37,481 nt of DNA from a virus. The translations under genes and the position numbers were made by a program. The stretch lies in the IMG/VR virus record IMGVR_UViG_3300021959_000149, positions 1 through 37,481 of that record; one strand, written 5' to 3'. Positions 5,277 through 34,100 of this stretch are shown piece by piece (position 1 is the stretch's first letter; the number at the start of each line of letters is the position of its first letter). The notes beneath the pieces were generated by a model that was given only the letters and a program-made list of their open reading frames with translations, was not told the origin of the DNA and did no database searches.

Positions 5277-6607
5277 GTACATGGGAAAACGATGATGAAT
5301 ACGGTGACATTGACGAGAACAGTGCAGGCAATGGCTTCGGAGCGGCATCCGAAAGCAACGCCAATGCTGGACTACCAAGCGGTGTCATTGACAGACTGAA
5401 AGCATATGCCGAGCGAGTGGGTAAGAAACTGAATGAAGTCGTGGATGATTTCATTACCATGTGTAAGGAGTATTCCGCAGACCCCACAAGCGAAGATGAG
5501 GATTTGCTCATTGATTGGGCTGAACAACTTGTCGTTGAAACACGCCGTGCAAGCGGTGGCGGTAACAGCAAGTTACAAACTTGGGTTGGGTGTTTCCTCG
5601 GTGTGGCTGACAAGAAGGCTGACCGACTCGCTAACATTGTGCGAGCCAATCTCAAGTGGTTCAAGGATGACCCCGAAGAGGCCATCAGTAGTGGTCGCCT
5701 TGGCGTGTATTCCAAGAACGATGGCGTATGGAACTTGACCACCAAAGAGGGTACTGAGAGCACGGGCCTTTCTATTGAGGAAAATCCTACCCCACCTCAC
5801 GGCATCAAGCACGAGAACATGTGGGTTTGTCTTACTACCTACGACAACAAGGCGGCTCCATCCAAGAAGATGGGTCGCTACGCATACTTCCTTGGTGGGG
5901 AAGAAGAGGACTTCGTGAAGAATGGTAACATTGCACTGTGGCGTGTTGACCTCACTGGTGAACATGTGTATCACAACCTCACCATTGGTCGCCCTTGTAA
6001 GATACCCGTTGTTCCTCCTCGTGATGGAGCAAGTGATGCTTTTAGCGATGTCCTTAGCATTTACTCGGACTTTGAAGTAAACTACACTGACGAGTTCGTA
6101 AACGAAGAGTTGCGACCCCTGTTGCACCCTTCTCGCTTTTGGACGAACCCCGACTTCCATGAGTTGTATGTCCCTGTTGATTCCTTGGAGGAAGCATACG
6201 AAGAGCGTAAGCAATTCTATGACGCTGGTGGAGAGCGGCGTTCCTACGGCCCATTGGTTATCACCAAAGGAACGGTTACACGCATGAGCACTGAGGCTCG
6301 TGAAAGCGATTACGACGAAGAGGGACACAATTACAACTTGACCCTCTCAAGCAGTGTGAGTGGTGATATTGATTGTTGGGTGCCCGGTGCCGTCGGCAAG
6401 TGTTCTCAACCATTCGTGGCTCATTGGGGCGAGGACTCTTTCCCCTATGCTGAACGCTCAACCGTATTCGTGTTTGGTCGTATTGGTTTGAAAGCACGAG
6501 ATGGTCTTACTACTCCCAAACTGACGGTGTTCGGTGTCTATGCCGACCCACGCCGCTCTCGCCGCCGTATGACTGGCGGGGACACTGGTACGGAGCAATT
6601 CAACTGA
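5273..6607 (+). CDS. probable RPA-like single-stranded DNA-binding protein
   Basis: 444-aa protein with an acidic, disordered N-terminus (first ~35 residues), a helical segment (about 40-130) and a beta-rich C-terminal half. The last ~130 residues (GPLVITKGTVTRM..., then STVFVFGRIG...KLTVFGVYADP) look like an OB-fold, with alternating hydrophobic strands and a basic tail (RRSRRRM). No zinc finger is seen. Its place between the clamp loader and the RecA-like ATPase, in a replisome operon otherwise lacking an SSB, supports an RPA-type role, but the assignment rests on composition and context, not on a decisive motif. Co-translated with the clamp loader through an ATGA overlap. Confidence 0.5.
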   Translation: MSTWENDDEYGDIDENSAGNGFGAASESNANAGLPSGVIDRLKAYAERVGKKLNEVVDDFITMCKEYSADPTSEDEDLLIDWAEQLVVETRRASGGGNSKLQTWVGCFLGVADKKADRLANIVRANLKWFKDDPEEAISSGRLGVYSKNDGVWNLTTKEGTESTGLSIEENPTPPHGIKHENMWVCLTTYDNKAAPSKKMGRYAYFLGGEEEDFVKNGNIALWRVDLTGEHVYHNLTIGRPCKIPVVPPRDGASDAFSDVLSIYSDFEVNYTDEFVNEELRPLLHPSRFWTNPDFHELYVPVDSLEEAYEERKQFYDAGGERRSYGPLVITKGTVTRMSTEARESDYDEEGHNYNLTLSSSVSGDIDCWVPGAVGKCSQPFVAHWGEDSFPYAERSTVFVFGRIGLKARDGLTTPKLTVFGVYADPRRSRRRMTGGDTGTEQFN

Positions 6608-6618
6608 GGTGAAGAAAC

Positions 6619-7593
6619 ATGGCAGGATTTGGACAAACAGCGAATGCACAAAAGGAATTGAAAGAAGAGCAAGCACAGCCATCCATGGTTGTCACCACCA
6701 TGACAGGTGGAGACATGTTCGCTGACATGCGAGCAGAAGAAGCGAAGATGATTGAACAAGAGATTCAACACATGTTCGTTGGGATTGCTGGTTTTGATGG
6801 TACGGGTAAGTCGGGCATTGTCACCCACGCTTTCGGAGAATACCTCAAGACACATCCCGATGCTTCCATGCACGCTATTGATTTTGACATGGGTGTTGCC
6901 ATGCTTAATTCAGCAGTAAACAACAACCCCAACATCATTTCTTGGAAGCCATGGCAAATGGGTATCAATGACCGCACGGCCTACGACTACCCCGGTACTC
7001 ATGACCGAGTGATGAAAATTATGCGCTACATCCTCCACCAAGTGGAGAATGAAGGGGCGCATGTATGGGGTGTGTTGGTGAGTGGTCTTGATTCATGGTT
7101 GGAGATTTGTACCAATAACATGCGAATCATTGACTTGGGGCTGGCCAAAGATGGTATTGAGTCGGCTGACATTCGTGGTGCTGGTGATGCAAAGCGTGTG
7201 GAGCGACAGTCCGACTGGGCAATTCGCAACACTCGGTTTCACCAACTCACGGCTTTGTCCCGTAGCCTCGTGCGTGCGGGTGTTCGTGTGTTTTGGGAAA
7301 CTCACTTGCGTGCTACGAACTTCTCTTACGGTGCTGACGATAGCAACAAAACATCGTGGCAACCCGAATGGGAGAAGAAAACCAACAACTACCTTCCTAC
7401 CATCATTTGGATGGAACAGGAAGAACACTACGACGATGAGAATGAATTGATTAAAACAGAATACAGGGCACGATTCAAGAAGTGTAAGACAAATCCCGAA
7501 CTTCAAGACCAGTCACGCACTGTATTTGTGACTCGTCCTAATGGACAACCCGAATGGTTTGGCTTGCCCGAACTGTACAATGGGAGTTTGTGA
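6619..7593 (+). CDS. RecA-like/Sak4-type ATPase (RadA-core-like)
   Basis: P-loop ATPase of the RecA fold. Walker A is GFDGTGKS (residues 58-65); a hydrophobic strand ending in SGLDSW (about 149-160) fits Walker B; HLRATNFSY near residue 230 may be a sensor or L2-region segment. The protein lacks the N-terminal helix-hairpin-helix domain of cellular RadA and at 324 aa resembles phage Sak4/AAA_24 ATPases, which work with SSB in strand annealing or exchange. Position directly after the probable SSB supports recombination-dependent replication or repair. Strong GAGGTGA ribosome site before the ATG. A KaiC-like role is less likely. Confidence 0.75.
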   Translation: MAGFGQTANAQKELKEEQAQPSMVVTTMTGGDMFADMRAEEAKMIEQEIQHMFVGIAGFDGTGKSGIVTHAFGEYLKTHPDASMHAIDFDMGVAMLNSAVNNNPNIISWKPWQMGINDRTAYDYPGTHDRVMKIMRYILHQVENEGAHVWGVLVSGLDSWLEICTNNMRIIDLGLAKDGIESADIRGAGDAKRVERQSDWAIRNTRFHQLTALSRSLVRAGVRVFWETHLRATNFSYGADDSNKTSWQPEWEKKTNNYLPTIIWMEQEEHYDDENELIKTEYRARFKKCKTNPELQDQSRTVFVTRPNGQPEWFGLPELYNGSL

Positions 7594-7735: not shown

Positions 7736-8488
7736 ATGACAAAAATAACGATTAACAGAAAAGACTTGCTGGACTTCCTTACCTTTTTTGGTAAGGGGGT
7801 AACTTATGTTCGCATGAGTTGTGCAGGCAATCGTCTTACGGTTGAAGTGGGCTTCTCTACCTACTACCTACGAAAGCAACTTGTGGGTGCTTCCGTTGAG
7901 GAAGAAGGGTTCATCCACATCGCTTTACTTGAGAAAGCAATTGCTTTCCTCAAAGCCAGCAAGCAGACTTCTGTTACACTGCGACAAGCCGAAGAAACGA
8001 AGCCCCTTCATATGGAGGCGGGGGGCAACAAGTTGCAACTACCAAGCACTGACGACATCCTCTCAGCGGCCAAGACCGTAGTAGTGCGTAACCTCCTTGA
8101 AAAATCATCAGCAAATGGATGGAGTAGTTTTGGTGAAGATGAACTAATCGTACACGCTACACTCAAAACCAATGATTTGATTTCCCTTGCTGGCATGAAG
8201 GGCTTGCTTGCTGATGACTCATTGTACAAAATGCGTATTCACTGTGGTGAAAATGAGTTCGGTATTGTTGCCGGTAAAGCCGCTACGGGTCGCTTGTTCA
8301 CCACGCTACCCGCCCTTGACAGCGATGGGCCAAACGCTACGGTAGAGACTTACTTTGGCGACTGGCTTCCTACTTGCTTGCAGTTCCTTGACGAAGGTGA
8401 AGCACGCCTTCACATGGGTGACAGTACATTGGTTATCTTTGAGCAACAGAATACTTTACTGATGATTGTAAACGAGAGTGATGTATGA
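7736..8488 (+). CDS. pcn: sliding clamp, PCNA-like DNA polymerase processivity factor
   Basis: 250 aa from the preferred start, the usual length of archaeal PCNA. It would form a ring that tethers PolB and nucleases to DNA. Sequence identity to cellular PCNA seems low, but the pattern fits: repeating beta-alpha-beta clamp segments, a middle linker region, and a C-terminal segment resembling clamp ends (ARLHMGDSTLVIFEQQNTLLMIVNE). It lies between the clamp-loader operon genes and PolB and overlaps PolB's start (ATGA, 8485-8488), which strongly supports the assignment. A T4 gp45-type clamp is the main alternative. Confidence 0.75.
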   Translation: MTKITINRKDLLDFLTFFGKGVTYVRMSCAGNRLTVEVGFSTYYLRKQLVGASVEEEGFIHIALLEKAIAFLKASKQTSVTLRQAEETKPLHMEAGGNKLQLPSTDDILSAAKTVVVRNLLEKSSANGWSSFGEDELIVHATLKTNDLISLAGMKGLLADDSLYKMRIHCGENEFGIVAGKAATGRLFTTLPALDSDGPNATVETYFGDWLPTCLQFLDEGEARLHMGDSTLVIFEQQNTLLMIVNESDV

Positions 8489-10884
8489 TGATTATTGACT
8501 TCATCTCCAACGACCCCTACGAACCGCTCACCATCTACGAGCGTACCCGTGGGGCTGACGGGGTGTTGAAAGAACGCTACATCACCCACGAGGATGAGGG
8601 GTATGTGTACCCCTTCTGTTGGTTGCGGCAAAATGCTCCCACTTGGGTTATCAACCGCCTTAGCAACCTCCATGCTCGCATCAATAAGAACGAGGTAGCC
8701 ACTGGACTTGACGGTGGTGAGTTGTGGAAAGTTGAAGTGAATGACCCTAATGTATTGTGGGAAATTAAAGAGTTGGTTGGTAAGTGGACATACGAGGCTG
8801 ACTTAAATTATCTTGACCAAATCCTTCTCACCAATTACCCCGACAAATTGCCGGAGTTTCACCCACGCAAGTGGTATTACGACTTGGAGTGGCAAACAAC
8901 AGGCGAAGGTGCCATCACGGTCATGGCCGTGGCCGATACGCACGCTGAACACAATGTTGTGTTTGCTTGGAGTCAAGACTCTATTCGTGACACTATTACC
9001 AAGACCGAGTGGATTGACCGCTACGAAGGGTACGAGTTGCGTACCTATCCCAATGAGGACAAGATGCTCATTGGTTTCCTTGAACATCTCAAGGAGTGCG
9101 ACCCCGATATGTTGATTGCTCACGCTGGTGGGTGGGCTGACCTGCCGAAATTACATGACCGATTGGGTGCTTTGCGCCACGACATGTCACCCCTCGGTAT
9201 CTTCCTTGCACCTAAAAAGGACGGGTCGGGTTACAAGACTACGGCTCAGCCTATCAAGGGGCGACTGGTCTTTGACACAGCGGCACGGTGGGAAGAAGGC
9301 AGTGGCTTTGAAGGCGTGTGGCAAAAGAGTGGGCGTGGCAAAGCACAACAACGCAAGTTGAATTGGTTCGCTACTGAACTTGGATTGGGCCACAAACTTA
9401 CTGATGAAATAGATGGCATGACCGTACACAATGGTTGGGCTGAATACTACGATGACTTTGTGGATTACTGTTTAGTTGATACCACCTTGCTTCGTGACAT
9501 TGATAACAAACTCAACTGCACTGATTTTCACATTGCGCTACAACAAGTTGCTGGTGTACAGTTCGGTAGCACACACAATGTGAGCCGCTACTTCCGTGGT
9601 TTGATTGGTCGTAAAACAAATCTCAAAGCACCTACTTCTTACATTGAGGACAGACCCGAACTACAGGCCGCATGGGTTATGCCTCCCGTCGCTGGTCGTC
9701 ATGAGAATGTGGCACTGGTGGACTTCGCATCTCTATACCCTAACATTATTCTCTCAGCCAACTTATGCTGGACAACGCTGACTGACCAAGCGGGGCCGAA
9801 TGTTCTCACGCTTGACATACCCCCTAAGATGGATGATAAGGGTAACTACATTCCCGGTACGGGTGGTGTGTTCCATTGGCGACAAGATAAGGAGGGTTTG
9901 CTTCCGAAGGTTGTCAAGGACATGCTCGCTCTTCGTAAGCACTACAAGGGGTTAATGAAGGCGGCAACCGACCCCGATGAAAAGTTAGGCTACAACATGT
10001 TACAGATGGCCGTCAAGGTCGCTGTGAATGCTGTGTACGGTATGGTGGGAAGCCGTAAGGTTCGTGGACAGTGGAGCAGTTATGAGATTGCTCAATCTAT
10101 TACCTATCTTGGCCGTGAGTCTATCAGTATGCTGGTGGAGCGTAGCGAAGAAATGGGGTATCGTGGGTTGGCTGGTCACACCGATTCGTGCTACATTCAA
10201 GTGCCTTTAGACGAGGCTGAAGTTGTGGCTCAACGACTCAGTGGTATTGCACAAAATGAAATGGGGTTAAAATATCTTGATGTGGAGTTGGAGGCTTTCT
10301 TCCCGTACTGGTTTACGGCCAATGTGAAGAACCGTAACTTCGGTATTAAGTCGTGGCCTCCCGAAGATGCGGGTGACATGAAGGTGACAGGTTTCTCCAT
10401 CAAGGCTTCAAATGCACCTCCGCTGACAAAAGAATTACTGGGCAAAGTATTCCATATGATTTCTACTGGGAATGAAGAAGATGAAATCTTTAACGAGATT
10501 CGTCCTGCTATTCGTGAGGTGTACATGGGTAAGCGACCTGCTACGGATGCCTCATCTTATGGTGCTGTCAAGAAGGACTTGGATGAATACGGTGTGGTAG
10601 TGCCTAACCCTGCGAAAGCGGCACGATATTCCAACGAATATCTTGGTACGGACTACAAGAAGAATGACAGTGTACAATGGGTATTCATTGATGATGTACC
10701 CGAAGGTCAACCGTTCTGTAATGTGATTGCGTATGATGATGAGCGACAACTCAGTGAGTATGGAATTGATTGGGCGACCATTGTACAAAAATGGATTCAT
10801 GATAAATTGAAGTCGGTGTATGAAACACTTGACTGGGATTTGGAAAGGCTGACGGCACGCCGAGTGCCGAGAAAACTATGGTGA
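8485..10884 (+). CDS. polB: family B DNA polymerase with 3'-5' exonuclease domain
   Basis: Replicative polymerase, 799 aa. Exonuclease motifs: Exo I DLE (D133, E135), Exo II region HAGGWADLP (D219, with Ala where Asn is usual), Exo III YCLVD (Y328, D332). Polymerase motifs: A DFASLYPN (D413), B KVAVNAVYG (K511, N515, Y518, G519), and C GHTDS (H565, D567), where family B enzymes normally have YGDTDS. The second, catalytic Asp of motif C is retained but the first is His. The KNRNFG segment near 615 matches the KKRY-type palm motif. No intein or split is seen. The gene overlaps the clamp upstream and sits at the MORC-like gene downstream, so all are probably one transcript. Confidence 0.95.
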   Translation: MMIIDFISNDPYEPLTIYERTRGADGVLKERYITHEDEGYVYPFCWLRQNAPTWVINRLSNLHARINKNEVATGLDGGELWKVEVNDPNVLWEIKELVGKWTYEADLNYLDQILLTNYPDKLPEFHPRKWYYDLEWQTTGEGAITVMAVADTHAEHNVVFAWSQDSIRDTITKTEWIDRYEGYELRTYPNEDKMLIGFLEHLKECDPDMLIAHAGGWADLPKLHDRLGALRHDMSPLGIFLAPKKDGSGYKTTAQPIKGRLVFDTAARWEEGSGFEGVWQKSGRGKAQQRKLNWFATELGLGHKLTDEIDGMTVHNGWAEYYDDFVDYCLVDTTLLRDIDNKLNCTDFHIALQQVAGVQFGSTHNVSRYFRGLIGRKTNLKAPTSYIEDRPELQAAWVMPPVAGRHENVALVDFASLYPNIILSANLCWTTLTDQAGPNVLTLDIPPKMDDKGNYIPGTGGVFHWRQDKEGLLPKVVKDMLALRKHYKGLMKAATDPDEKLGYNMLQMAVKVAVNAVYGMVGSRKVRGQWSSYEIAQSITYLGRESISMLVERSEEMGYRGLAGHTDSCYIQVPLDEAEVVAQRLSGIAQNEMGLKYLDVELEAFFPYWFTANVKNRNFGIKSWPPEDAGDMKVTGFSIKASNAPPLTKELLGKVFHMISTGNEEDEIFNEIRPAIREVYMGKRPATDASSYGAVKKDLDEYGVVVPNPAKAARYSNEYLGTDYKKNDSVQWVFIDDVPEGQPFCNVIAYDDERQLSEYGIDWATIVQKWIHDKLKSVYETLDWDLERLTARRVPRKLW

Positions 10885-10889
10885 GAACA

Positions 10890-12341
10890 ATGGGAAAAAG
10901 AACACTGCAAATGGAGAGCAACAACGAATTGATGGCAAATACAATGTCCAAGAGTGGATTTACATTCACTTCGGCATTGCACGAGTTGGTGGATAACGCC
11001 ATCGTGACAGCGAAGAACATTTCTGTCAATTTGTTGGTGGACAATCAAGGACAACGAAGTATCAAGAAAATCTCAGTGATTGATGACGGGTGTGGCATTT
11101 CTCTTGAGGATTGTGCCGTTGCATTGAGTGTTGGTGCGAGGACAAATCAAGGCATTCATGAACACGGTGTGGGAATGAAAAGTGCCATCGCATACTTTGG
11201 CGATACCGATATTTCCAAAGGATTGGACAAAATCTTCTCTTACGATGGAGTGGATTCATACGCAATCGTTGGTTACGAAGGAAACAATTTACACATTGAT
11301 GACGACATTTCTGTTCCCGATTCAACAGGCACAAAAATTGTGATGAATGTTTTGTTGAATGTCTTTGCGGCAAAACGGGTAAATAGCCTGCGAGATTCAC
11401 TCGGTGTACGCTATGCTAACTTTATCAACGGGGGAGGTAAAATCGTCATTAACGAAGTTGATTTGATTAGTAATAAAGTAATCAAAGATGCAAAGGGTAA
11501 TCCAACATCCATTACAGTGCCAGCAATCACTCCACCATACTTTCACCCTACAACGCTTACCAATGTTCATCTTCTCAAAACTGAAGTAGCAACGCAAAAT
11601 GTTGTTGCAGAACTTACCATTGGAATGAGTCCCGAAGATTATGAGGGGGTGTGGGCGAGACAAAGTTATGGAGGTGGTATTGATGTCGTACAAAATGACC
11701 GAGTTATTATGCACCGTGAGTACGAACCACTAACCGTATGGCGAGCAAAGAATCACACCTCATTGAATGGACTTGTCGGACAACTCGTTGTTAAAGAAGG
11801 ACACTTGCCTACTACTCCAAAGAAAGACAATATCCAACAAACCGATGAATGGTACGAAATGAAAAAGGCCATTGCGGAAGCAATCAAAGATGCCAAAATT
11901 ACTTCTTTCTTCAATCCACCCGAAAACGAAGATGATTACGATAACCTCAGTGAATCTCTCATTCGTGATGGTTTAGCCAATTACCTTGAATCACAGGTCT
12001 TACCGAATGGTGAAAAGATATGGACTGATGTAAAAACAGAAGAGTCCACAGATACAAACCTCAGTATGGATGTTACAGCATACAGTGGTGACACTTTGTA
12101 TGTTTTTGAGGTTAAAAAGGGTAACTTCAATGCTCAAGACATGAATCAACTCGTTGGTTACATGGTGACAGTTGGTGCCACACACGGTGTTGTGTTTGCG
12201 AAAAATGTGCTGGCTAATGCAAAGAAACAATTTAACGAACATTGGAAGCCATTGCTTAATGATTTTAACATTCAATACTGGGAAGAGTCAAGTGCACAAC
12301 ACAAAACTGTACTTACTACATATGTTGATGTGGGGAATTGA
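10890..12341 (+). CDS. MORC-like GHKL ATPase fused to a PD-(D/E)XK nuclease-like domain
   Basis: 483 aa. N-terminal GHKL ATPase: N-box ELVDNA (E32, N36), DDGCG (D66, G67, G69), lid GVGMKSA (93-99). A middle S5-like domain follows, with GGIDVVQNDRVI and LPTTPKKDNI, like the MutL/MORC pattern where a conserved Lys contacts ATP. The C-terminal ~110 residues contain D394 in SMDVTAY and E407-V-K409 in VFEVKKG, the D...ExK layout of PD-(D/E)XK nucleases, then a helix with QLVGY. Prokaryotic MORC-type ATPases are known near restriction-modification genes. A DNA-clamping or looping nuclease is my inference. GGTGAG precedes ATG 10890; ATG 10878, overlapping polB, is the alternative start. Confidence 0.75.
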   Translation: MGKRTLQMESNNELMANTMSKSGFTFTSALHELVDNAIVTAKNISVNLLVDNQGQRSIKKISVIDDGCGISLEDCAVALSVGARTNQGIHEHGVGMKSAIAYFGDTDISKGLDKIFSYDGVDSYAIVGYEGNNLHIDDDISVPDSTGTKIVMNVLLNVFAAKRVNSLRDSLGVRYANFINGGGKIVINEVDLISNKVIKDAKGNPTSITVPAITPPYFHPTTLTNVHLLKTEVATQNVVAELTIGMSPEDYEGVWARQSYGGGIDVVQNDRVIMHREYEPLTVWRAKNHTSLNGLVGQLVVKEGHLPTTPKKDNIQQTDEWYEMKKAIAEAIKDAKITSFFNPPENEDDYDNLSESLIRDGLANYLESQVLPNGEKIWTDVKTEESTDTNLSMDVTAYSGDTLYVFEVKKGNFNAQDMNQLVGYMVTVGATHGVVFAKNVLANAKKQFNEHWKPLLNDFNIQYWEESSAQHKTVLTTYVDVGN

Positions 12342-12698: not shown

Positions 12699-12871
12699 GA
12701 AGAGATGTATGTTGGCTTTGTGGTGGAAAACTGATTTGGGGTGCTGACTTTGATGCGGAAGATTACGGTTATGAGGGTGATGGCATAGTTGCTACATTGT
12801 CATGTTCTAATTGTAATGCTGATGTAACTTATGTACTTTTAAACGAGGATGAAAAGAATGAGCAGAATTGA
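12695..12871 (+). CDS. small zinc-ribbon protein (58 aa)
   Basis: Begins MRRDVCWLCGGKL and has CSNCNAD about 28 residues later, a standard two-knuckle zinc ribbon with a hydrophobic beta hairpin (ADVTYVLL) at its end. It is joined to its upstream neighbour by an ATGA overlap, and its 3' end overlaps the next small gene. Similar CxxC...CxxC mini proteins are common in tailed phages and archaeal viruses with unknown function. Confidence 0.65.
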   Translation: MRRDVCWLCGGKLIWGADFDAEDYGYEGDGIVATLSCSNCNADVTYVLLNEDEKNEQN

Positions 12872-13043
12872 AGATGAAGTATGCGCCAAGATTCAGCAAC
12901 GGGCTGAGGTCGGCAAGGCCAAGTATGGCGTGACGATGGAGCGTGGCGACCTTTCCCTCATTGAGTGGCTTACTCACCTACAAGAAGAACTGATGGATGC
13001 CGCCGTATATGTTCAACGCTTGATTGAAGAGGTGAAGGAATGA
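12858..13043 (+). CDS. MazG-like mini protein
   Basis: 61 aa: KIQQRAEVGKAKYGVTMER, then LIEWLTHLQEELMDAAVYVQRL. This matches a short phage protein family related to MazG-type nucleotide pyrophosphohydrolases; EELMDA keeps the ExxD part of the metal-binding helix motif. Full MazG domains are longer, so activity is uncertain; the small phage versions may act as dimers or be regulatory. GAGG at 12845-12848 lies 9 nt before ATG 12858, favouring it over ATG 12849. The gene overlaps the flanking genes by a few bases. Confidence 0.65.
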   Translation: MSRIEDEVCAKIQQRAEVGKAKYGVTMERGDLSLIEWLTHLQEELMDAAVYVQRLIEEVKE

Positions 13044-13180
13044 ATACGATTAAGACGGCTACCGTTCACATGCGGGATTACCAACTTGAGTTCACGGACT
13101 TGACATTGGATGACATCAATTGGTTGCGCCAAGCGTTGAATCAATTGGAACAACACATCTTGAGTGGTGAAGAAGAATGA
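13040..13180 (+). CDS. small hypothetical protein (46 aa)
   Basis: Starts MNTIKTATVHMRDYQLEF and reads as a short beta hairpin followed by one helix (DDINWLRQALNQLEQH). Joined to both neighbours by ATGA overlaps. The hairpin-helix layout is like small phage accessory proteins, but no function can be named. Confidence 0.55.
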   Translation: MNTIKTATVHMRDYQLEFTDLTLDDINWLRQALNQLEQHILSGEEE

Positions 13181-14106
13181 GTGAAGTCCAATTTTGGGTA
13201 GCGTATGATAGCGTGGGCGAAAGCCGTGTTACCATCAATGAGGCTAAGCGAGGCGAGCAGTACGAATGCTTGGAGTGCAAGGGCATCATGATACCCAAAA
13301 AGGGCGACATCAACCGACACCACTTCGCTCACAAGGCCGATTTCTCTTGTACGGGTGAGGGCCAACGACATTTGTACATCAAAGAAACAATGTATTCGTT
13401 TCTTCAAAATAACCTTGAGCGTTTGCATCCACTTACAAACAAATCGTTGTCCGTTGAAATGGAAAAGAAGTTCAAAGGGCACATACCCGATGTGATTCTT
13501 AAGTGGCACAGTGGAAGAAAAATGTGTTATTTAGCGATTGAAGTGTGTGACACATCACCTTGCACAAAGGAGAAGATTGACGCTTATGGTAAGAAGAATA
13601 TCTGCGAAATAAAAATTACTGACTGGAAAGAAGAACAAATGAATAACCCGTTTTTCATCGCCATCACTCTATACGATGCTGTATATCAGCAATTGATGAA
13701 GGTACACCATGCGAATATATTGAAGCGAATAACTGAAAAAGAAAAAGACCTCAAAATCATTCGTAGTAAATTAACTTCAGTTAGGCAACAGGTAAAACAC
13801 GCAGAAGAGATGTTAGAAGAAGAGATTCGTGATAAACATAAGAGATTTTTTATTGGGAAATGGAGGAAGCATAGTGACGGTGAGTTTTATGCCTACTTAC
13901 CAAGTTCGTGTGCAATGGGGGATTTAGCAATTTTGAAAAATAAGAAAAATGACTATTTTGAGTTGGTGGTTGTGACGCAACATATTGAGACAGATTGGAA
14001 GTACAACTATGCGTGGTTCAGTTATACAACTATTGCAAATAAAAGGGAGAGAGATTCTTTTGATTTTGCTAACGGGGATAACTCTAATCGGTGGTGGGCT
14101 GAATGA
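13177..14106 (+). CDS. CoiA-like zinc-finger nuclease family protein
   Basis: 309 aa. The N-terminus shows the CoiA pattern: ECLECKGIM (C31, C34), then RHHFAH (residues 47-52) and E61...H65...K69, a zinc site leading into a restriction-endonuclease-like core. PDVIL (D105) and LAIEV (E122) fit the PD-(D/E)XK acidic residues. CoiA proteins are tied to DNA uptake and recombination in bacteria; a viral copy more likely processes DNA ends. The C-terminal part holds a Lys/Glu-rich coiled coil (about 185-225) and a beta-rich end. It is base-poor in G and C relative to the following gene in its second half. Catalysis is inferred. Confidence 0.65.
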   Translation: MSEVQFWVAYDSVGESRVTINEAKRGEQYECLECKGIMIPKKGDINRHHFAHKADFSCTGEGQRHLYIKETMYSFLQNNLERLHPLTNKSLSVEMEKKFKGHIPDVILKWHSGRKMCYLAIEVCDTSPCTKEKIDAYGKKNICEIKITDWKEEQMNNPFFIAITLYDAVYQQLMKVHHANILKRITEKEKDLKIIRSKLTSVRQQVKHAEEMLEEEIRDKHKRFFIGKWRKHSDGEFYAYLPSSCAMGDLAILKNKKNDYFELVVVTQHIETDWKYNYAWFSYTTIANKRERDSFDFANGDNSNRWWAE

Positions 14107-24815: not shown

Positions 24816-25139
24816 TCACCACTTTACCTTGTTAGCCCAGTATGCGGCACTCATTGGCCCACGGGCGATGTTCTTAGCGTGGCGGGATTTGAACGACTTG
24901 CGCTTGTTCTTCATGCGCTCCGATTCACCAGCCTTTGGTTTGCCAGCCACGCTTGCACCCTGCTCACCAAAGCGAATCGTCTTAGTTTGTCCACCCGACC
25001 GAGCCACCACGATATGCGACTTCTTGGGATGGTTGGGGGTGCGCTTAGGCTTGTTGTACCCGCTCACGCCCGCACGAGCGAGGCGTGGGTCACGCTTGCT
25101 TTCTTTGAGAAGCATCCATGCGTCATTCATTGGATTCAT
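24816..25139 (-). CDS. DUF6321-like phage protein (107 aa)
   Basis: Very basic protein with the patterns NDAWMLLKESKRDPRLARAG, SHIVVARSGGQTKTIRFGEQG, KSFKSRHAKNIARG and MSAAYWANKVKW, which I recognise as a widespread family in marine tailed phages (DUF6321). It probably binds DNA or an internal virion component; the biochemical role is not known to me. The start overlaps the stop of the giant gene (ATGA), with GGTGAT a few bases upstream. A second Met at 25130 is an alternative. Confidence 0.75.
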   Translation of the reverse strand: MNPMNDAWMLLKESKRDPRLARAGVSGYNKPKRTPNHPKKSHIVVARSGGQTKTIRFGEQGASVAGKPKAGESERMKNKRKSFKSRHAKNIARGPMSAAYWANKVKW

Positions 25140-28100
25140 GAAGCATCACCACTGTGGTCATTTGAATTGTAGGTTACATCTCCTTTATGTCCTTTTGGAT
25201 GGAGAGATTGCGAGAAGCGGGGTTGAACGGTGTAATCCATGCGCTCTTCCTTGCTCTCACCCTCTTGGTGCGTGCGTCGGCGTGATGCGTCAGCACGGTA
25301 ATGTTGCAGGGTGTTTTCACTGATAATGACACGAGTAATCTCGTTGTCCAATAGCGATGAATCAAAGCCAGTAGCGGCTGTGCCGATAATCTTTGGGCCT
25401 TGACTCATTGGCACGGTGTCGCTTGTACTGATGTCCATGTAGTATGCGGGCGCATAAGGTGGGTTGGTGTCGGGATTGGTGCTACGGATGTAAGAGCCTG
25501 CCGATGCTTGACCGCTGGTTGTCTCGTACACATACAGCCCGTATTTACCACCAGCGGTGGCACTGAAGTAGTTACTACCATACTGTGGACTTGATGAGTG
25601 CAAGTTGAGGTTGGAGCGGAACATCTCAGCGTGTTGTTTGTCCAGCAAACGAACTGGGCGCAACATGTAGGAAATGCGCTTGTCGGTGAGGTTGGTACGC
25701 TGGTGCCCGTTGGTGTCAGTTTGATACGGGTTACTGGACTTCCATTGTGAAACATTGTATGTAAATCCATACTTTTCCGCAAGGTAACCTTCCACTTGCC
25801 TTTCTTCCTCAATTGTTAATGCACGATTATACTGTATTACTTCCGCAATTTTTCCATTCAAGTAATATGAAATGGGTACATTCCCAACAATGTAATTACC
25901 CTCATCTGCTTTCCAATAATTGCCTGTTGCAGTGTAATTTCCTGCACCTTGTAAGTTCATTTTGATTGTAGCAGTGCTTCCATTACCATCACCACCAGTA
26001 ATAGAAGCAGTGACCAACTCGGCTTGTCCACCCACTGCGCTGTTTGTTGCTGAACTTAATGTTGTCCATGTGGTGTTGCTACCTGCCCACCATTGCCATC
26101 GGTTGTTTGAATCCATTCGGATGTATAAATTGAATCCACTGCGATTAACTGGACTTGTTGCTCTTGATTCAATAATACCATGAATAGCGTTATCGTCACT
26201 ATCTGCCCATGCAACGACAAATACTGTTACTTCAGCGGTGTTTAAACGAGCATCAAATGGAGTTTCCAATTTATCATCACCGTCGCAATCTATGACCGGC
26301 ATGTTGTTTACATTAGGTGATGAGGCAATGTATGTTGGTTGAGCACTGGCTGTTGATTGAGTGAACTCGTGCCCGTTTCCACTCACATCTTTCCACGAGG
26401 TAACAGCCGCCCCATCAGCCAAATCAAGACTATCTGCTTTGAGCCACAACGCCATACCCGATGTTGGTATGCCTCCCCAATCAGTATCGTCAATGGGAGA
26501 TACGAAATTGCGGGCTTCTGCGATGTAGGTGCCGCCGAGCGGGTTGAAGTTAGAGGTATGGGAGAGGCGCATAACACCACCCTGCGGTTGGCCACCAAAG
26601 TCCAGTGAGGTAAGGTCGTAATGCCCAATTGATTGCGAGCCTGCTTGCATACCACCATGCACGATAACACGCTGGCCTACGCCACGGTCGGTATGCAGGC
26701 TGTGAGCCTCAGTGTTAATGGCAATGAGGTTATCATCCACGCCCTCCACATTCTCGGTGTCAAGTCCAATACGGGGCGCACTACGGCTTACAGCGTCCTT
26801 GTGTGGAGAGTCGCCGCTCACCGTTTCCACACGGTCACTCACCACGGCTTCGGGCTTGAGCAGGCCATCCTCAGCGATGTTAAGGCGTGCGCTAATTCCA
26901 CGGGGCACTTCAAACGGTTGTAAAATATCGTTACGAGCACGGATATAGCCATCATTCATGTTTGGCTCAGCGGTGTGGTGAGACAACACAACACCTGTTG
27001 CGTGATACGGCTCGTTGAGGGCTGTCAGCACATCCTCATTGAAAGCAGTGGGGTATCGCAGACCACGCCCGTGTCCATCATCACCAACACGATGGGCGTT
27101 GGTGGGGAAGTACACATCCACAAGTTGTGTAGTGTCATTGTTGTTGGTGTCGTTAAGTCGCCCACCGAAGCGTGGGACAGTTACACCCCCCGCTAAACTT
27201 ACTTCACCATTACTATCAATCAATCCCTTCATATTAACAACTGGGTTTCCGTTGTTGTAAATGCGCTGATAGGGGGTTCGGTCATCTGTTCGGTCATATT
27301 CGTACACATCAGCGGCATCCCAAGCAGGGCGAATACCGAAGGCACGAACAGGATGGCGGCGCACATCCTCACCACGAGTGTTACCCCACCAGTCCACCAA
27401 GTAATAGGCTACAGCCTCGTCTAATTTGTAAATACCCTTGCCTTCGCTATCACCCCACCAATCACGAAGAACAGTGTTGGTGTTTCGTAGCGTGCGAACA
27501 GGACAACCGAATGGGCGGGCTACACGCATACCGTCGCTGTAACGCACCTGCCATTCGGGTTTGTCCACTCCAAGCATACCGCTGAAGTTGGTTTGACGCT
27601 CCATGATACCGAGTTGGGTGTTGGGGTATGTACCATTGGAAAGGCCACTCCCGCCTGCGTATGTCCATGTTTCAGTTTCACCTTGCACAAGTGGCCCGTG
27701 TGGATAACCTACGACATTGTTCGTAGTCGTTACAGCCGCCTCACGGAATGCACGCATACCATACAACGACCATTGTGGTTTGTTGTACGGTTGGCGCAGA
27801 CCAATACGATAACCAAATGGGCGGGTGCGGGTAGGGTCGCTGATACTGTCGTAAGAGGTATTACTAACACCGTTGAGCACCGTGTAACCGCTACCAGTAT
27901 CATCAGCGTCAGTCCATACTGGGCCATCAAACGAGTAGTCTCGTGGATAATTCCATGCGGCTGAGACATACCCGTACCCGTCAAGACGACTGATGAGCGG
28001 GCCACCACGACTACCACACGGCCAGTAATGGTTGAGGTTGGTCTTTGTTGCCGCATCGCCCGAATCAGCCTGTCCACCTTGTGGGTCAAATCGGTTTGCA

Positions 28101-31100
28101 ATCAACAAGGGGTTTCCGTATGTCGTGTCCAACACATCGGCGGTAACTAAATCTCCGCTACCATCAATAAGAATTGTACTGCCAATTGGTATAGTTGCTT
28201 TGACAGTTTCTTGGAAAATGATTTGTGTGCCGCTACCTCCACTAACGGTGTATGCTGTTCCATCAATGATAACTTTTAGAAGAGAAGATAAAACAGTACC
28301 TCGTAATGTAGTATTAACAAAATTACTACCTACCCCAGTTACCGTTGAAGGGTTACCAGTGGTGTCTTTAATTTCATATGGCGGTGCTACAAACTTACGG
28401 TCAAATGCAAATGGGCCGAGGCTGGCGTAGTATGCGGCATCGTGGTAGTGTACAGTCTCAAAATGTTCGGGCATACTATTGAGTGGTTTCTTGTCCACAG
28501 CACGGTCGGTGAGTGGGTTGAGCCATGTGCGACTGGAATCGGAATAGAAGGTATGGGGTCGCCCAAGGTTAGGATGCCACAAACACAAGAATGCATCGGC
28601 CATGTGCAGGCTGTTGGTATCTCGGCTACCCTGTAGCATCTGCGGTAGAATGCGAGTCACCATGCTGGTCTTGGAATCTGTGAAAATAGCACCAGCAGGG
28701 CGGAAGTCGTAAGCACGGGTAAGGCGCAACTTCGTGCCAGCAGTTAAATTGCTGGTGAAAGAAGTCTTGGCAGTAATAGTGAATTGCTTTGGTTCATTCA
28801 TGTTCGTAGCATCATACCCACTGCGCTCAGTGTAAGTATGAGTGCGTCGTACACCATTAGCATCCGTGTATTCCAACTTGTTGCCGTAGTAGGGTATTTG
28901 CGGGAAGCCACGAGCATCATCAACGGTGATGGTGGTTGATGTCCAACTTACCACGGTACACACAGGGTTGAGGCTGATGTTCTCAAGCACCTCGTGATAC
29001 AAGTCGGGGTACAAACTTGGGTAGCCTGCAAGTGTGATTTGACAGGCTATACTTCCCGTGCTTGCACGCAAGAACTCGTAGTAGTTGTCAAGACGATGGT
29101 GGTTGAGGTGACGGAAGCCCGTAGCGTCTGCATGGTCGGGGCCGTTTTTGTGGATGATACTCCACCACGGGATGTTGGTCGTCATACCCGGAGTAGAGCG
29201 GTCAAACATTTGCGGGTGGTAAGGCAGTGAACGCTTGACAAATGCAGGGCTTTCGGTTGCCTGCACACCCAAAGCGTTGTACAGCATCAACGGCGGGATG
29301 TTGGTGAATTGGCTACCGTGGTCGGGGTCGTGGTCAAGGATGAGTTCATTGATGAACACCTCACACCCACGCACATCAGCCATCGTAGCCTCAGCCAATA
29401 CAAGAGCGACCGCACCCGTAGCACTGTCGGGTTCACGCAGACCTACAACGAGTGCGACCTGTTGGCTGGTCAGTTCATTGACGGTGCCATCGGGTAAACC
29501 AGTGGCCGCACCGTTGGCATGGTAGCCTATCAATTGAGATTTGTGAATGTTAGGCTGAATGACAATTTGGTATGCACCTACCTCGCTTGGGTCGGGGAAG
29601 TGATGGCGCAGGGTGTAGGTAGCGGCGGCTTCTAACACAATGGAGTGTCCACCAGCCTTGTTGATGTTACCAGCCTCTCCTTCCGATGCCAGTACACCAT
29701 ACCCATCGCTACGAATCTTGGATTCAAACATAAGTGTGAAAGCACCGCCGTGAATATCACTCGGCCCGCTTGGTGTAGCCGTAAGCGCACCGAAGGTGTG
29801 TAGCGTATCGTAACCGTACAGTTTATCCGTAAGTGTAGTTGAAATATCGGTCTTGAGGTCACCAAGGTCTTGTTCTTCCATTAGTGCTGTTTCATGCGCT
29901 TTCACTGTAGCAGAACGGATTGCTCGGTGTTTATTGTACAGACCTTGATAGGCAGGGTGAGCAAAATGGCCGGGAAGCATTGCCATGGTTGGATTGACAA
30001 AGTGATGCCCCATACGAGGCAAAGACAATGGACTCATCTGCGGTATTTCGTAGATAGTATGACATAGCGTATCAGCCAGTGTCCAAAAATTGATGTAACG
30101 AGTATGCACCATGTCGGGTGAATTACCACTCACTTCTGCATGGTCACGAAGGCGGCGAGCGGCAAAGAAGCGAGTACTGCCTGCTGGAATGTAGTACGAT
30201 GGAACAACTTTCAGCGAAGTAATTGAGGATGAAACAAGTGCATCAAAGTCAGCATCTCCAACACATCCAGTAAAAGTGGAGCCAACAATGTTGGTAAATG
30301 ATGCAACCCCACCTCGGTCAGTAACAGGGTCATACAAGCGCAAGAACTTGCGACCATCACGAATGGCTTCATTAAACAACAAAATATCGGGAGCGGCATT
30401 GACAGTAAGTGTAGTGCCGCTGTATGACACAGCCGTTAATTCAGCGTTTGTTACACCACCAGCGTGCGTATAATAAGTTGGGTATCGGTGACTGTGGGTG
30501 TTACCGTTCTTGGTGATATGGAAGAACAGTGTACGGTCATGCAACTCGTATGAAGTTTCAAGCGGAGCGTTGCCTGTAGCCGTTTCCCAACCCGAATAAG
30601 TTGGGTCGGGGAAGTTACCTTGGCTGATATGTTCCCAGTTATGGTCGCTAAATGTACCACCAAGGCGTGGCCCTTTTGTTTCATCAGTAAATAGATGCTT
30701 GATACTGTTAGCAGACATAGGCCGCATCATTCCACCCGTGCCAAACGATTCGTTTTGGTAGGCTTGCAAACGGTCAAAGCCAGCACGCACAAGCAGGTTA
30801 CCGGGAATGCTGTCGGGGTTGGGAAGGCGTACCTTGAGGTTTGGCTCTACTCCACTTCCAGCGGTTGCGGGAGCAAGACCTTCTGCGCTACGGTCGGAAA
30901 CAGGGTTGAAAGTGCGGATAATCGTACCAAATGGCGAACCACCTTCAATAATGTGAACTTGGCCCGTGTCGTCCTCAACTTGCACTTCTTCAAACTGCAT
31001 TTCTTCATTGGGGATAGCCAATACATTTCGCAATTCATCGGGGTGTGCGGCGGCGATTTGTGGATGGGCCAATTCTTGAGCCTGTATAATGGGGAACATG

Positions 31101-34100
31101 GCACTGTTCGTGGTTTCAAATGAGAAGCGGTTGATACCGTACAACTTTTCACCTGTGGTGTAGGCTGTTCCACTGTTTACTCGTGTAACAAATGGTACTG
31201 CACCAAGTCCACGAGCGTTGACAGCAGGGAGTGAAAGATTACCGCCATCCATGCGCTTCCATACGATATGCTCCACGGAGAAGTTACGAGCGGGTGAGCG
31301 TTGATTCATTTTGAAAGCGTTGGTGTCTCCAAGCCAATAATTCGCATCATCTCCGTATCGGTCAAGTTCAGTGCTGGTACTTGTTTTGAGGTCAGTGATG
31401 AGGTTTCGCTCAACATCAGTAGCATCTTCCAAAAAGAAACTGCCGGGGCTTTGGTCAAGGTCAAAGAATAAATCACCAGTCTTTGCGTAACATGGTTCAG
31501 CATTGTACAATATATTGTCATCAACAACAGGCCCGTGCATTTGGAAAGGCACTGATGGAATGTCGTCAATAGGCAAGGTCACGGGCAGGGGAATCAAAGC
31601 CTCAATGTTTGGCCCTCCATGGGCAGGCGCAACAAATCTATCCACACCATGAATGCGCTCATCCCACTGTACTGTACCAGCAAACTTGATGGCATCGGCG
31701 GCGGCAGTACCACCAGCGGTCTTGTTTACTACAGCCAACCAGTCACCTGTTCCAGTGATTCCGTCACGGTCATACTTAGCCACTAACGGCATTTCGGCTT
31801 CATACGATATAACAAGGAAAGCACGACTAAACACGCCTTGAGTATGATGAAGGGCACGAGGTACAGCGTTTTTGTCACCAATGTGAACAGGGTCAGTGAA
31901 ATAATTTGAACTTTCAGCGTCAGTAAACGAGTAGGCTGGTGTGGTATTGGTTGATGCGTATGTCCAAGTGTACTTTGTTGTAATCATCGTGTCTGTGTTG
32001 TTCACACCATTAAGCACACCTGTTGCTTCGGGGGCGTTACGCATAGGTGTGTAGTGAGGAAGATGCCCAAAAGTGCTCATCACACTTGAGGCTGGCCCGT
32101 AGGGTGAAAAGCCCAATATGGGGTGCCATGCACCCAACCCTGCACCATATCCTTCTGTACCGACTTTAAGTGAGTTAAGGTAAGAGTAACGCTCACCAGC
32201 CCACCCCATCGCACCAACAGGTCGTGTACGGTCAAGAGCATCCACAAGACCGCTAAAGTGTACACGGGTCATGTGGTCACGAGTGCTATCGTTTTCGTTG
32301 TTGTAGTAGTGAACACCCGACTTGCTCCAAATGTACAATTTTGTTGGAACACCGTATGGCGGAGCAATAGCAAAAGTAGGAACAGTGACAGGTGTTATTA
32401 AGTCGCACTTTTCCTGCCATGTGGTTATATCTTCAAACTGTGCTTTACCCGTGATTCGGTTTGGTGCAAGCCAAAATCTCACTGTCCATGTACCACCGTT
32501 GTCATACACCTCACGAGAATGATATGGTGCAAAGGCTGGACAAATGCCCCCACCCGCTACGGGACGACCACCATCATCAGTGCGAATCCAACCACACGCA
32601 GGGATTTGTTCAAGCGATGCTTGGGTACCACCACTCATTGTACCTTCAATGTAAGACTGAGAAGAAGTGGCGGTGTCATTCACATACACCGTGTTCCAGT
32701 CCATTTCAATCCAACCGTATCGGTCTTGGCGTTGAGCGTTACCCATACTTGGCATGAAAGTACCACCCATTGCTTTGAGTGCCCCTTTGCCGGGGTTTTC
32801 GTTAATGGCTTGGCCGATGATAGTCGCCAGTTCTTCTCCGTTTTGACAGCGTGTAGCATCAACTACGATAATTTCACGGTCAAAGTCACTGGCACTTTCT
32901 CCAAGTAAGCCATTTAACACACTGGTAGCCATTACTCCCGATACACGGAAAGCCGTTGGGTTCACGAGGTTACCGTTGATTTTGCTAATCGTGAAATCAT
33001 TCTTTTGCATTTGCGGATTGAATGCCATTTGATTGTCAAGCCACGAGCCGCCGGGGTGATACCCACCATCCATGTGGAAAGTCATATCGGCACTCATGGC
33101 TATGCCGTAATACGCCATAGCGCAGTGCTGGTATGGGTGTGCTTTACGATAATCTGCATCGTTACTGAGAGAAATCTTACCGGGTACTGGATTGATAAAA
33201 TGCTCACCATAATGGTAGCCGTGTTCGGGTCGTTGGTATAAACCGACACCATCTCCAATGTTTGGAATACCTTGTGCTGGTGACCAGTTAAGTGTTGTAC
33301 GCCAATGAAATCGTTGTCGGTCTGTTTGATATACGCTATTGGGTGGGCCATAATCACCATCCGAGTTGGTAATTTCGTTGGGTAGATTGAGATTGGCTGG
33401 CACTTTACTCCATGTGTTACCCGTAGTCACCACATAGCCGGGGTGCGGCTCAACATCTCCAAGACCCGATGTTGGTTCATTGAATGGGAAGGCTTGACCG
33501 GGGCCATAAATGAGGTAAGTGGTGAAATACTTCGTGCTTGTTTTATGGTCAGTGTAGCGTGCAGTTTGATGTGGCATACGCATAACAAGAGGAATGGGTC
33601 GTTGGCGAACAATACCGTTTGCGTATCGTGCTGTTACATGGCTCGGATTAGTGATAAGATTTATCAGCGTTCCTGCATCAAGGTCGGGTGACAATACATT
33701 GTCTTGGTTGTACGCTGGCGGGTTAATGCTACCACGATGTTGGTTGAGAAGAGGCGTGCCGGGGAAGAAAGCGAGCAGGGCGTTACAGTCCACCAACGCA
33801 TATGCTGTGCTAATTTCGTTAGCGTTCTGTATGCCCGCTGTACCTGTTGGGCCAGTAGAATACGGGTGCGTGTAAAATGAGGAGTAATCGTTTTGCGAGC
33901 CGTCATTGACATCCAGCACGACCCCACTGAATCCACCACCGAAGTACAGGGGTACACTGTGGTCGGTGCTGTCCCGCCCGCCTTTGAAGTAGGTGATGGG
34001 TTCACTTTCTACGCTACCGTATAGGCGCATACCACTACACTTTATGTCAGCATGACTCATTAGTAATCCATCTTCAGTTACACTTCCGCCACCAAACTCA

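Follow-up and report, generated by a model that had tools for sequence, protein, structure and literature searches.

A MORC-type ATPase joined to a predicted PD-(D/E)XK nuclease, encoded by an accessory gene behind PolB in a probable virus of marine archaea

What use might a virus have for a gene, placed directly behind its DNA polymerase gene PolB, whose product joins a clamp-type ATPase to a nuclease domain in a single chain? The question is raised by the IMG/VR virus record IMGVR_UViG_3300021959_000149, positions 1 to 37,481 of which (37,481 nucleotides, hereafter the window) were analysed. The gene in question, at positions 10890–12341 of the plus strand, encodes a 483-amino-acid (aa) protein consisting of a GHKL ATPase domain, an S5-type transducer and a C-terminal PD-(D/E)XK domain. 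The open reading frame (ORF) extends over 10878–12341 (+); the ATG at 10890 is preferred since this start is common to the relatives, and the residue numbers of a preliminary description of the window, made from the letters, fit the 483-aa product that it yields. The first two domains form a GHKL–S5 module of MORC type with intact ATPase residues, and the third is a predicted PD-(D/E)XK nuclease, akin to those of RecB/Cas4/NucS type, in which the E-D-ExK-QxxxY site is intact. The surroundings of the gene, its distribution and its relatives allow several candidate functions to be weighed, the host-DNA degradation, counter-defence and DNA repair suggested in the preliminary description among them; the evidence favours an accessory role in conflict over one in repair.

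Domain architecture of the encoded protein

In Pfam searches the protein matched HATPase_c_3 (E=1.9e-8, better than the family cut-off), and no nuclease family scored above its own cut-off. An AlphaFold2 (AF2) model built on an alignment of 19 sequences had a predicted local distance difference test score (pLDDT) of 83.8 and a predicted template modelling score (pTM) of 0.67; an earlier model from 8 close sequences (pLDDT 36.5) was discarded. In the VIA-align structure search of the whole protein, MORC2, MORC3, MORC4 and SMCHD1 were best, occupying the first 11 of the 50 rows shown (Z 21.0–22.3, model residues 9 to about 346), with 9cdj_B as the top chain (root-mean-square deviation 3.5 over 289 residues, model 9–346). 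The lead of MORC over other GHKL proteins is narrow because Hsp90 (Z 20.8) and GyrB (Z 20.6) come so near behind, and Foldseek, ranking by E-value, put Hsp90 chains on top. When a sequence profile was compared with the PDB, the best matches were topoisomerase VI-B (4.4e-11), MORC4 (7.2e-8), SMCHD1 (4.8e-7) and MLH1 (5e-6), and MORC3 was matched at profile positions 22–358. The segment GIDVVQNDRVI, starting at residue 263 in the S5 domain, fits the MORC signature GhXhhpXXRhl, which, when the protein was shuffled 20000 times, arose anywhere in the sequence in 46 cases; seven of the 19 alignment rows and a Priestia plasmid protein match it, and the other 12 rows do not.

Sub-threshold Pfam matches of the C-terminal 129 aa alone were all to families of PD-(D/E)XK type (NERD 0.0066, Cas4 0.027, Hjc 0.25), and a C-terminal profile made from the 19 relatives found a total of four PDB matches at E<=10, namely NucS (5.1e-6), EndoMS (4.4e-4), Cas4 (0.0012) and 4ic1 (0.0014), the last deposited under the name 'uncharacterized protein'. 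In the AF2 model, helix 355–368 is followed by strands 379–386, 392–399 and 402–413, helix 415–428, strand 432–440 and helix 442–452, which we take to be the order of the PD-(D/E)XK superfamily; model and alignment together place the D...ExK core on this order, and Q420xxxY424 is presumably a motif of RecB/Cas4 type. The VIA-align rows mostly cover residues 9–360 and none is listed for the C-terminal domain alone, the search having been made with the full-length model; this is no sign of a new fold. PADLOC gave weak matches only, to MzaB and CARF-PDDEXK with the whole protein and to CARF-PDDEXK and Cas4 with the C-terminal part.

Sixteen of 17 tabulated GHKL, S5 and nuclease positions (E32, D35, N36, D65, G69, G93, G95, K97, T148, K312, E355, D394, E407, K409, Q420 and Y424) are invariant in all 19 rows, which include relatives down to about 20% identity, and residue 98 is the sole variable one; within ELVDNA we take E32 to be catalytic and N36 to bind Mg. 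The alignment leaves aside the close forms L002 and L043, copies, the Priestia protein (L024), L054, for which no single open frame was found, and the partial relatives L026–L029 and L033. The complete set of GHKL motifs (ELVDNA, DDGCG, GVGMKSA), the S5-like transducer with a late lysine and the C-terminal D...ExK core, all claimed in the preliminary description, are therefore borne out by the invariant residues together with the HATPase_c_3 match, the MORC2 structural match to residue 346 and the NucS, EndoMS and Cas4 profile matches, respectively.

The close form of the protein (67–100% identity) was found in 13 IMG/VR contigs besides the window record, amounting to 8 distinct proteins, with the window protein standing for the identical L001. 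Codon comparison of seven of these eight, the window protein against the other six, gave non-synonymous divergence (dN) of 0.08–0.27 and synonymous divergence (dS) that was saturated or not estimable, and thus points to purifying selection on the protein. More distant relatives (about 19–26% identity), alike in length and layout, are encoded by viral contigs, by three bacterial genomes (a Psychrobacter and two metagenome-assembled genomes) and by the Priestia plasmid. The Priestia protein (E=2e-9, aligned to window residues 15–437 of 483) has dcm and an SNF2-related gene as neighbours. Two L. plantarum plasmid proteins, 47–49% identical relatives of L031 with the same architecture, lie one near a Sau3AI-family endonuclease gene and the other beside a RecD-like helicase gene, and the neighbours of L049, read from ORF starts alone, resemble an integrase and repressors. 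No tblastn match at E<=1e-3 was found among GenBank phages for the window protein, L055 or L048, and none was found when genome contigs were scanned with the close sequences; in a draw of 274 genomes from one class, four genomes matched the family at 1e-15, with a full-length match only in the centre genome.

An accessory slot behind PolB

The preliminary description placed the gene inside a viral replication operon and proposed a survey of related viruses for the same fusion. A PolB scan of IMG/VR, of which the best 80 of 97 relatives were used, found the gene anywhere in the record in 10 of the 80 (7/30 and 3/50) and no copy in the other 70; many of these records are fragments, but each of the 80 loci shows the slot itself. 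The position behind PolB stands, since the gene is directly behind PolB in 10 of 10 carrier records and in 13 of 13 close loci, but it is not a fixed member of such an operon and is cleanly inserted or lost there. In 27 of the 70 empty loci fewer than 50 bases separate PolB from the next shared gene; the remaining empty slots lack a 50-aa ORF or contain short ORFs (<=144 aa) or a 284-aa ORF (L133), and in four a relative of a gene that elsewhere lies upstream of PolB sits there instead.

Comparison of near neighbours sharpens this picture. Between the filled locus L076 and the empty L074, whose flanks are 95.7–96.5% identical, the slot differs by the gene itself, an insertion that coincides nearly exactly with the ORF. 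In a second such pair, L061 with the gene and L062 without it, the flanks agree at 94.3% and 91.9%. A PolB tree with 28 rows, 7 of them carriers (27 of the 80 loci, picked by hand, and the window PolB in place of L056; carriers L067, L068 and L108 left out as copies, L093 kept at <60% identity) placed carriers as sisters of non-carriers in four instances: L076/L074 (support 89/74), L061/L062 and L059/L060 (100/100 each), and the window with L057 and L069 (93/92). Non-carriers L057, L058, L060, L069 and L077 have PolB 85–91% identical. Identity in the GHKL-nuclease also outstrips that of its surroundings: for L002 and L003 it is 93.6%, with PolB at 66.5% and the primase-like protein at 67.5%, and for L004 and L007 it is 86.0%, with 73.4% and 75.0% for the same two proteins. 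Between L002 and L003, nucleotide identity rises from 60% in the last PolB block to 87% in the gene's first block. On the strength of these identities, the empty and filled pairs and the PolB tree, the gene must move between lineages or be repeatedly exchanged. Such accessory, patchy presence speaks against a core replication role, and the candidacy of the protein as a core replication factor was downgraded on the 70 of 80 related records without a copy.

The stretch behind PolB is plastic in other respects also. In the window it includes a gene at 13177–14106 (+) whose product has an N-terminal CoiA domain (8.8e-11) and of which a relative turned up at just two of the 80 PolB loci (L056 and L060). 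In Haloarcula virus HJTV-3 (L149:11436–11864) an HNH endonuclease gene lies directly behind PolB, and Serpecor1 (L150) is without it there.

In contigs that we label T4-like from a reading of their ORFs, the clamp loader being a tblastn match to that of the window, a distant form of the protein (24.5% identity) is encoded between PolB and a gp45-like gene. Among the best 80 of 259 relatives in a T4-like PolB scan, six loci carry a GHKL-nuclease gene, 69 have gp45 behind PolB without it and five have neither; in L055 and L140 the gene is located just before gp44 instead. The alleles of L053 and L183, only 36% identical, share the PolB–gp45 slot in phages whose PolB is 97% identical, and in two of the 69 loci without the gene the slot holds what reads as a GroEL-like gene (L228:2881–4509 and L232:6768–8384). 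The PolB–gp45 slot is a general landing place. In L173, near-duplicate AT-rich promoter-like blocks (5501–5600 and 7181–7275) stand ahead of the GHKL gene and of gp45, with a TAnnTTTG element that resembles Bacteroidota promoters; the L173 cassette looks as if it had arrived with its own promoter.

The features of the window gene and the borders of its slot are collected in Table 1. Its neighbours include, besides PolB, genes for an RFC small subunit (6.5e-53), a PF12705 nuclease, a weakly matched primase-like protein, an ERCC4 nuclease and a Cpn60/TCP1 chaperonin, a set resembling that of described magroviruses of Poseidoniales (PMC10768690, PMC12999244 and the available part of PMC10160649). 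Of the features described for Magrovirales, which also include an MCM, a ligase and a glycosylase, the four looked for, namely PolB, RFC-S, the ERCC4 nuclease and the chaperonin, are all present (PMC10768690 and the same part of PMC10160649). The window is thus probably from a magrovirus-like virus of marine archaea, as judged from its gene set. No virion gene was recognised among the window ORFs scanned. A 4099-aa ORF at 25136–37435 (-), with no Pfam match at E<=0.01, occupies the last third of the window.

Table 1. Positions in the window of the GHKL–S5–PD-(D/E)XK gene, its domains and motifs, and the borders of the slot
Feature	Position	Strand	Evidence or remark
PolB, left border of accessory slot	8485..10884	+	Pfam 1.4e-41
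GHKL-S5-PD-(D/E)XK gene, stop included	10890..12341	+	483 aa; alternative ORF start 10878
GHKL ATPase domain, about residues 1-160	10890..11369	+	HATPase_c_3 1.9e-8; AF2 model
ELVDNA, residues 32-37	10983..11000	+	E32, D35, N36 invariant 19/19
DDGCG, residues 65-69	11082..11096	+	D65, G69 invariant 19/19
GVGMKSA, residues 93-99	11166..11186	+	G93, G95, K97 invariant 19/19; residue 98 variable
S5-type transducer, about residues 160-341	11367..11912	+	MORC2 alignment to residue 346, Z 22.3; MORC3 profile match
MORC signature GIDVVQNDRVI, residues 263-273 (GhXhhpXXRhl)	11676..11708	+	motif definition PMC2292703
K312, late transducer lysine in TTPKKD	11823..11825	+	invariant 19/19
Linker motif DAKITSFF, residues 334-341, PIP-box-like (lead)	11889..11912	+	no variation at K, I, F, F, N, P, P among 8 close rows; low pLDDT right after
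PD-(D/E)XK nuclease domain, residues 352-483	11943..12338	+	NucS, EndoMS, Cas4 profile matches; helix/strand order
E355, helix-1 glutamate of the E-D-ExK set	11952..11954	+	invariant 19/19
D394	12069..12071	+	invariant 19/19
E407-V-K409	12108..12116	+	E407, K409 invariant 19/19
Q420xxxY424	12147..12161	+	Q420, Y424 invariant 19/19
64-aa gene, right slot border in 77/80 loci	12849..13043	+	other 3 loci: PF12705 nuclease gene used as border

Possible functions of the clamp-nuclease

We hold with moderate confidence that the protein serves the virus as a restriction-like effector, directed against competing DNA or that of the host. By analogy with MORC, MutL and topoisomerase VI-B, two protomers would close over duplex DNA on ATP binding, and closure of the dimer would bring the paired C-terminal nucleases onto the trapped DNA. 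The virus would produce this clamp-nuclease together with its polymerase, and the targets would be competing DNA, such as superinfecting viruses and plasmids, and possibly the host chromosome. Action against competing DNA is suggested because some relatives lie in mobile or restriction settings and because of the protein VcSduA, discussed below. Several observations weigh against such a role. Among the 20 window ORFs scanned with Pfam there was no DNA methylase or restriction helicase; the close-form gene is constantly beside replication genes in the window's group, which fits a replication role too; the bacterial relatives L030–L032 are in unremarkable surroundings; and the nuclease core is strikingly invariant in close relatives, unlike many diversifying conflict proteins. 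Moreover, as there is no sequence relation to the SduA_C domain, VcSduA is an analogue and not a proven homologue.

It seems to us unlikely that the protein is instead a viral replication, recombination or mismatch-repair factor, in which a MutL-like clamp with an EndoMS/NucS-like nuclease would perhaps be tethered to the sliding clamp via the linker motif KI[ST][SA]FFNPP, even though the gene lies between PolB and other replication genes, adjoins PolB in a second, unrelated-looking phage group (the T4-like contigs) and encodes a nuclease whose profile is closest to NucS/EndoMS. The linker motif is invariant in the 8 close rows but missing from the distant relatives, and it lacks the canonical Gln of the PCNA-interacting protein (PIP) box. 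A relaxed PIP pattern is also present in five window genes (recA6619, 'clamp', PolB, PDDEXK14103 and u17464) and is therefore not specific; in u17464, the one FF example compared with relatives, the motif is not conserved. The 250-aa protein encoded at 7736–8488 (+), named 'clamp' because it occupies the place expected of a PCNA-like clamp, was not confirmed as such: searches of Pfam, PHROGs and NCBIfam found nothing at E<=0.1 and the best PDB match was at E 0.23, so that the PIP-box idea remains a lead. The 70 of 80 related records without a copy, including the five with 85–91% identical PolB, also count against this reading. The same readiness of close relatives to manage without the gene counts against a host-takeover nuclease, which would degrade the host chromosome or disable a host defence complex early in infection and which we consider distinctly improbable. 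Its attractions are the position among replication genes, hence probably early expression, a restriction-like nuclease apt for DNA destruction, and the fact that GHKL proteins such as rIIA are discussed, in the available part of one account, as poorly understood phage counter-defence factors (PMC7824862).

The exactness of the L074/L076 insertion, a constant insertion site across all 13 close loci, the sharp similarity border at the PolB end between L002 and L003, and the haloarchaeal virus HNH gene that is directly behind PolB and missing in a relative would all suit a selfish mobile gene homing to the site behind PolB by means of its own nuclease. This explanation is weakened since the PolB–gp45 slot accepts a non-nuclease, GroEL-like gene in L228 and L232, and distant members are located in other places; we regard homing as very improbable. 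Homing enzymes, moreover, are not known to have an ATPase clamp.

The restriction-like effector may be extended to a more general proposal, that archaeal and bacterial viruses have repeatedly captured a nuclease-bearing MORC clamp and express it with the replisome as a self-contained topological trap, which would close ATP-dependently on competing DNA and then cut it. We offer this tentatively, as a possible but doubtful generalization. If it is true, the MORC signature would make the protein a viral, nuclease-armed version of a eukaryotic machine for silencing foreign DNA, MORC ATPases being involved in genome silencing in eukaryotes and found at restriction loci in prokaryotes, and would suggest viral use of MORC-type machines in conflicts with other DNA. 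The single-chain viral form would be a compact model in which DNA trapping and cutting could be tested jointly, and with empty and filled sites that correspond so exactly, what the gene does could in principle be tested directly.

Comparison with known systems

A closely similar published layout is that of paraMORC3 (Iyer, Abhiman and Aravind, 2008), described in the available part of that paper as GHKL, S5 and a RecB-type nuclease with E-D-ExK, in some cases as standalone genes (PMC2292703). The window protein likewise has GHKL and S5 domains and a C-terminal RecB-type restriction endonuclease-fold domain with E-D-ExK; paraMORC3, however, comes from bacteria and archaea and is reported there as lacking the MORC S5 signature (PMC2292703, same part), which the window protein has. 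The window protein therefore combines the MORC signature with the paraMORC3 layout, paraMORC3 having been compared by description only. With MORC itself it shares all GHKL motifs, an S5 domain with the conserved basic residue K312, the GhXhhpXXRhl signature and a Z of 22.3 to MORC2, but the nucleases that are neighbouring genes in MORC, according to the same part of PMC2292703, are here fused.

Equivalog models for MutL (27.2 bits against a cut-off of 180) and MzaB (19.7 bits against 850) were both rejected. The likeness to EndoMS/NucS lies in the NucS-like nuclease profile; EndoMS is not known to have an ATPase. MutL offers the idea of an ATP-gated clamp, although its nuclease module is of another kind (PMC2292703, as far as available). 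Phage rIIA proteins are likewise viral GHKL proteins, many of them among the BFVD structure matches, but those matches are mostly longer, and a variable C-terminal domain is described for rIIA in the accessible part of PMC7824862.

An analogue with proven anti-phage action is VcSduA, of GHKL-Shedu type I-D, which also joins a GHKL ATPase to a PD-(D/E)XK nuclease and, in the part of the report available, blocks phages and needs both ATPase and nuclease (PMC12137116); for EcSduA, the accessible text describes an N-terminal clamp that binds DNA ends and nicking nearby (PMC12904381). The window protein differs from VcSduA in being without SduA_C. This domain (PF14082/DUF4263) was not among the Pfam matches of the C-terminal part to E=10, a search in which HMMER filters drop most weak matches, and hhalign of the C-terminal profile against 7 SduA_C domains gave a probability of 1% (E 0.053). 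Shedu membership was rejected on this result and on the GHKL-SduA_C protein L166, whose similarity is confined to the GHKL part. The preliminary description had known of no viral system of this type; no viral member was found in the literature searched, where coverage of magroviruses was incomplete, whereas the architecture has been described for cells (PMC2292703 and PMC12137116, in the parts available). The architecture is thus already known in cells, and the new finding is that the viral gene forms an accessory cassette behind PolB.
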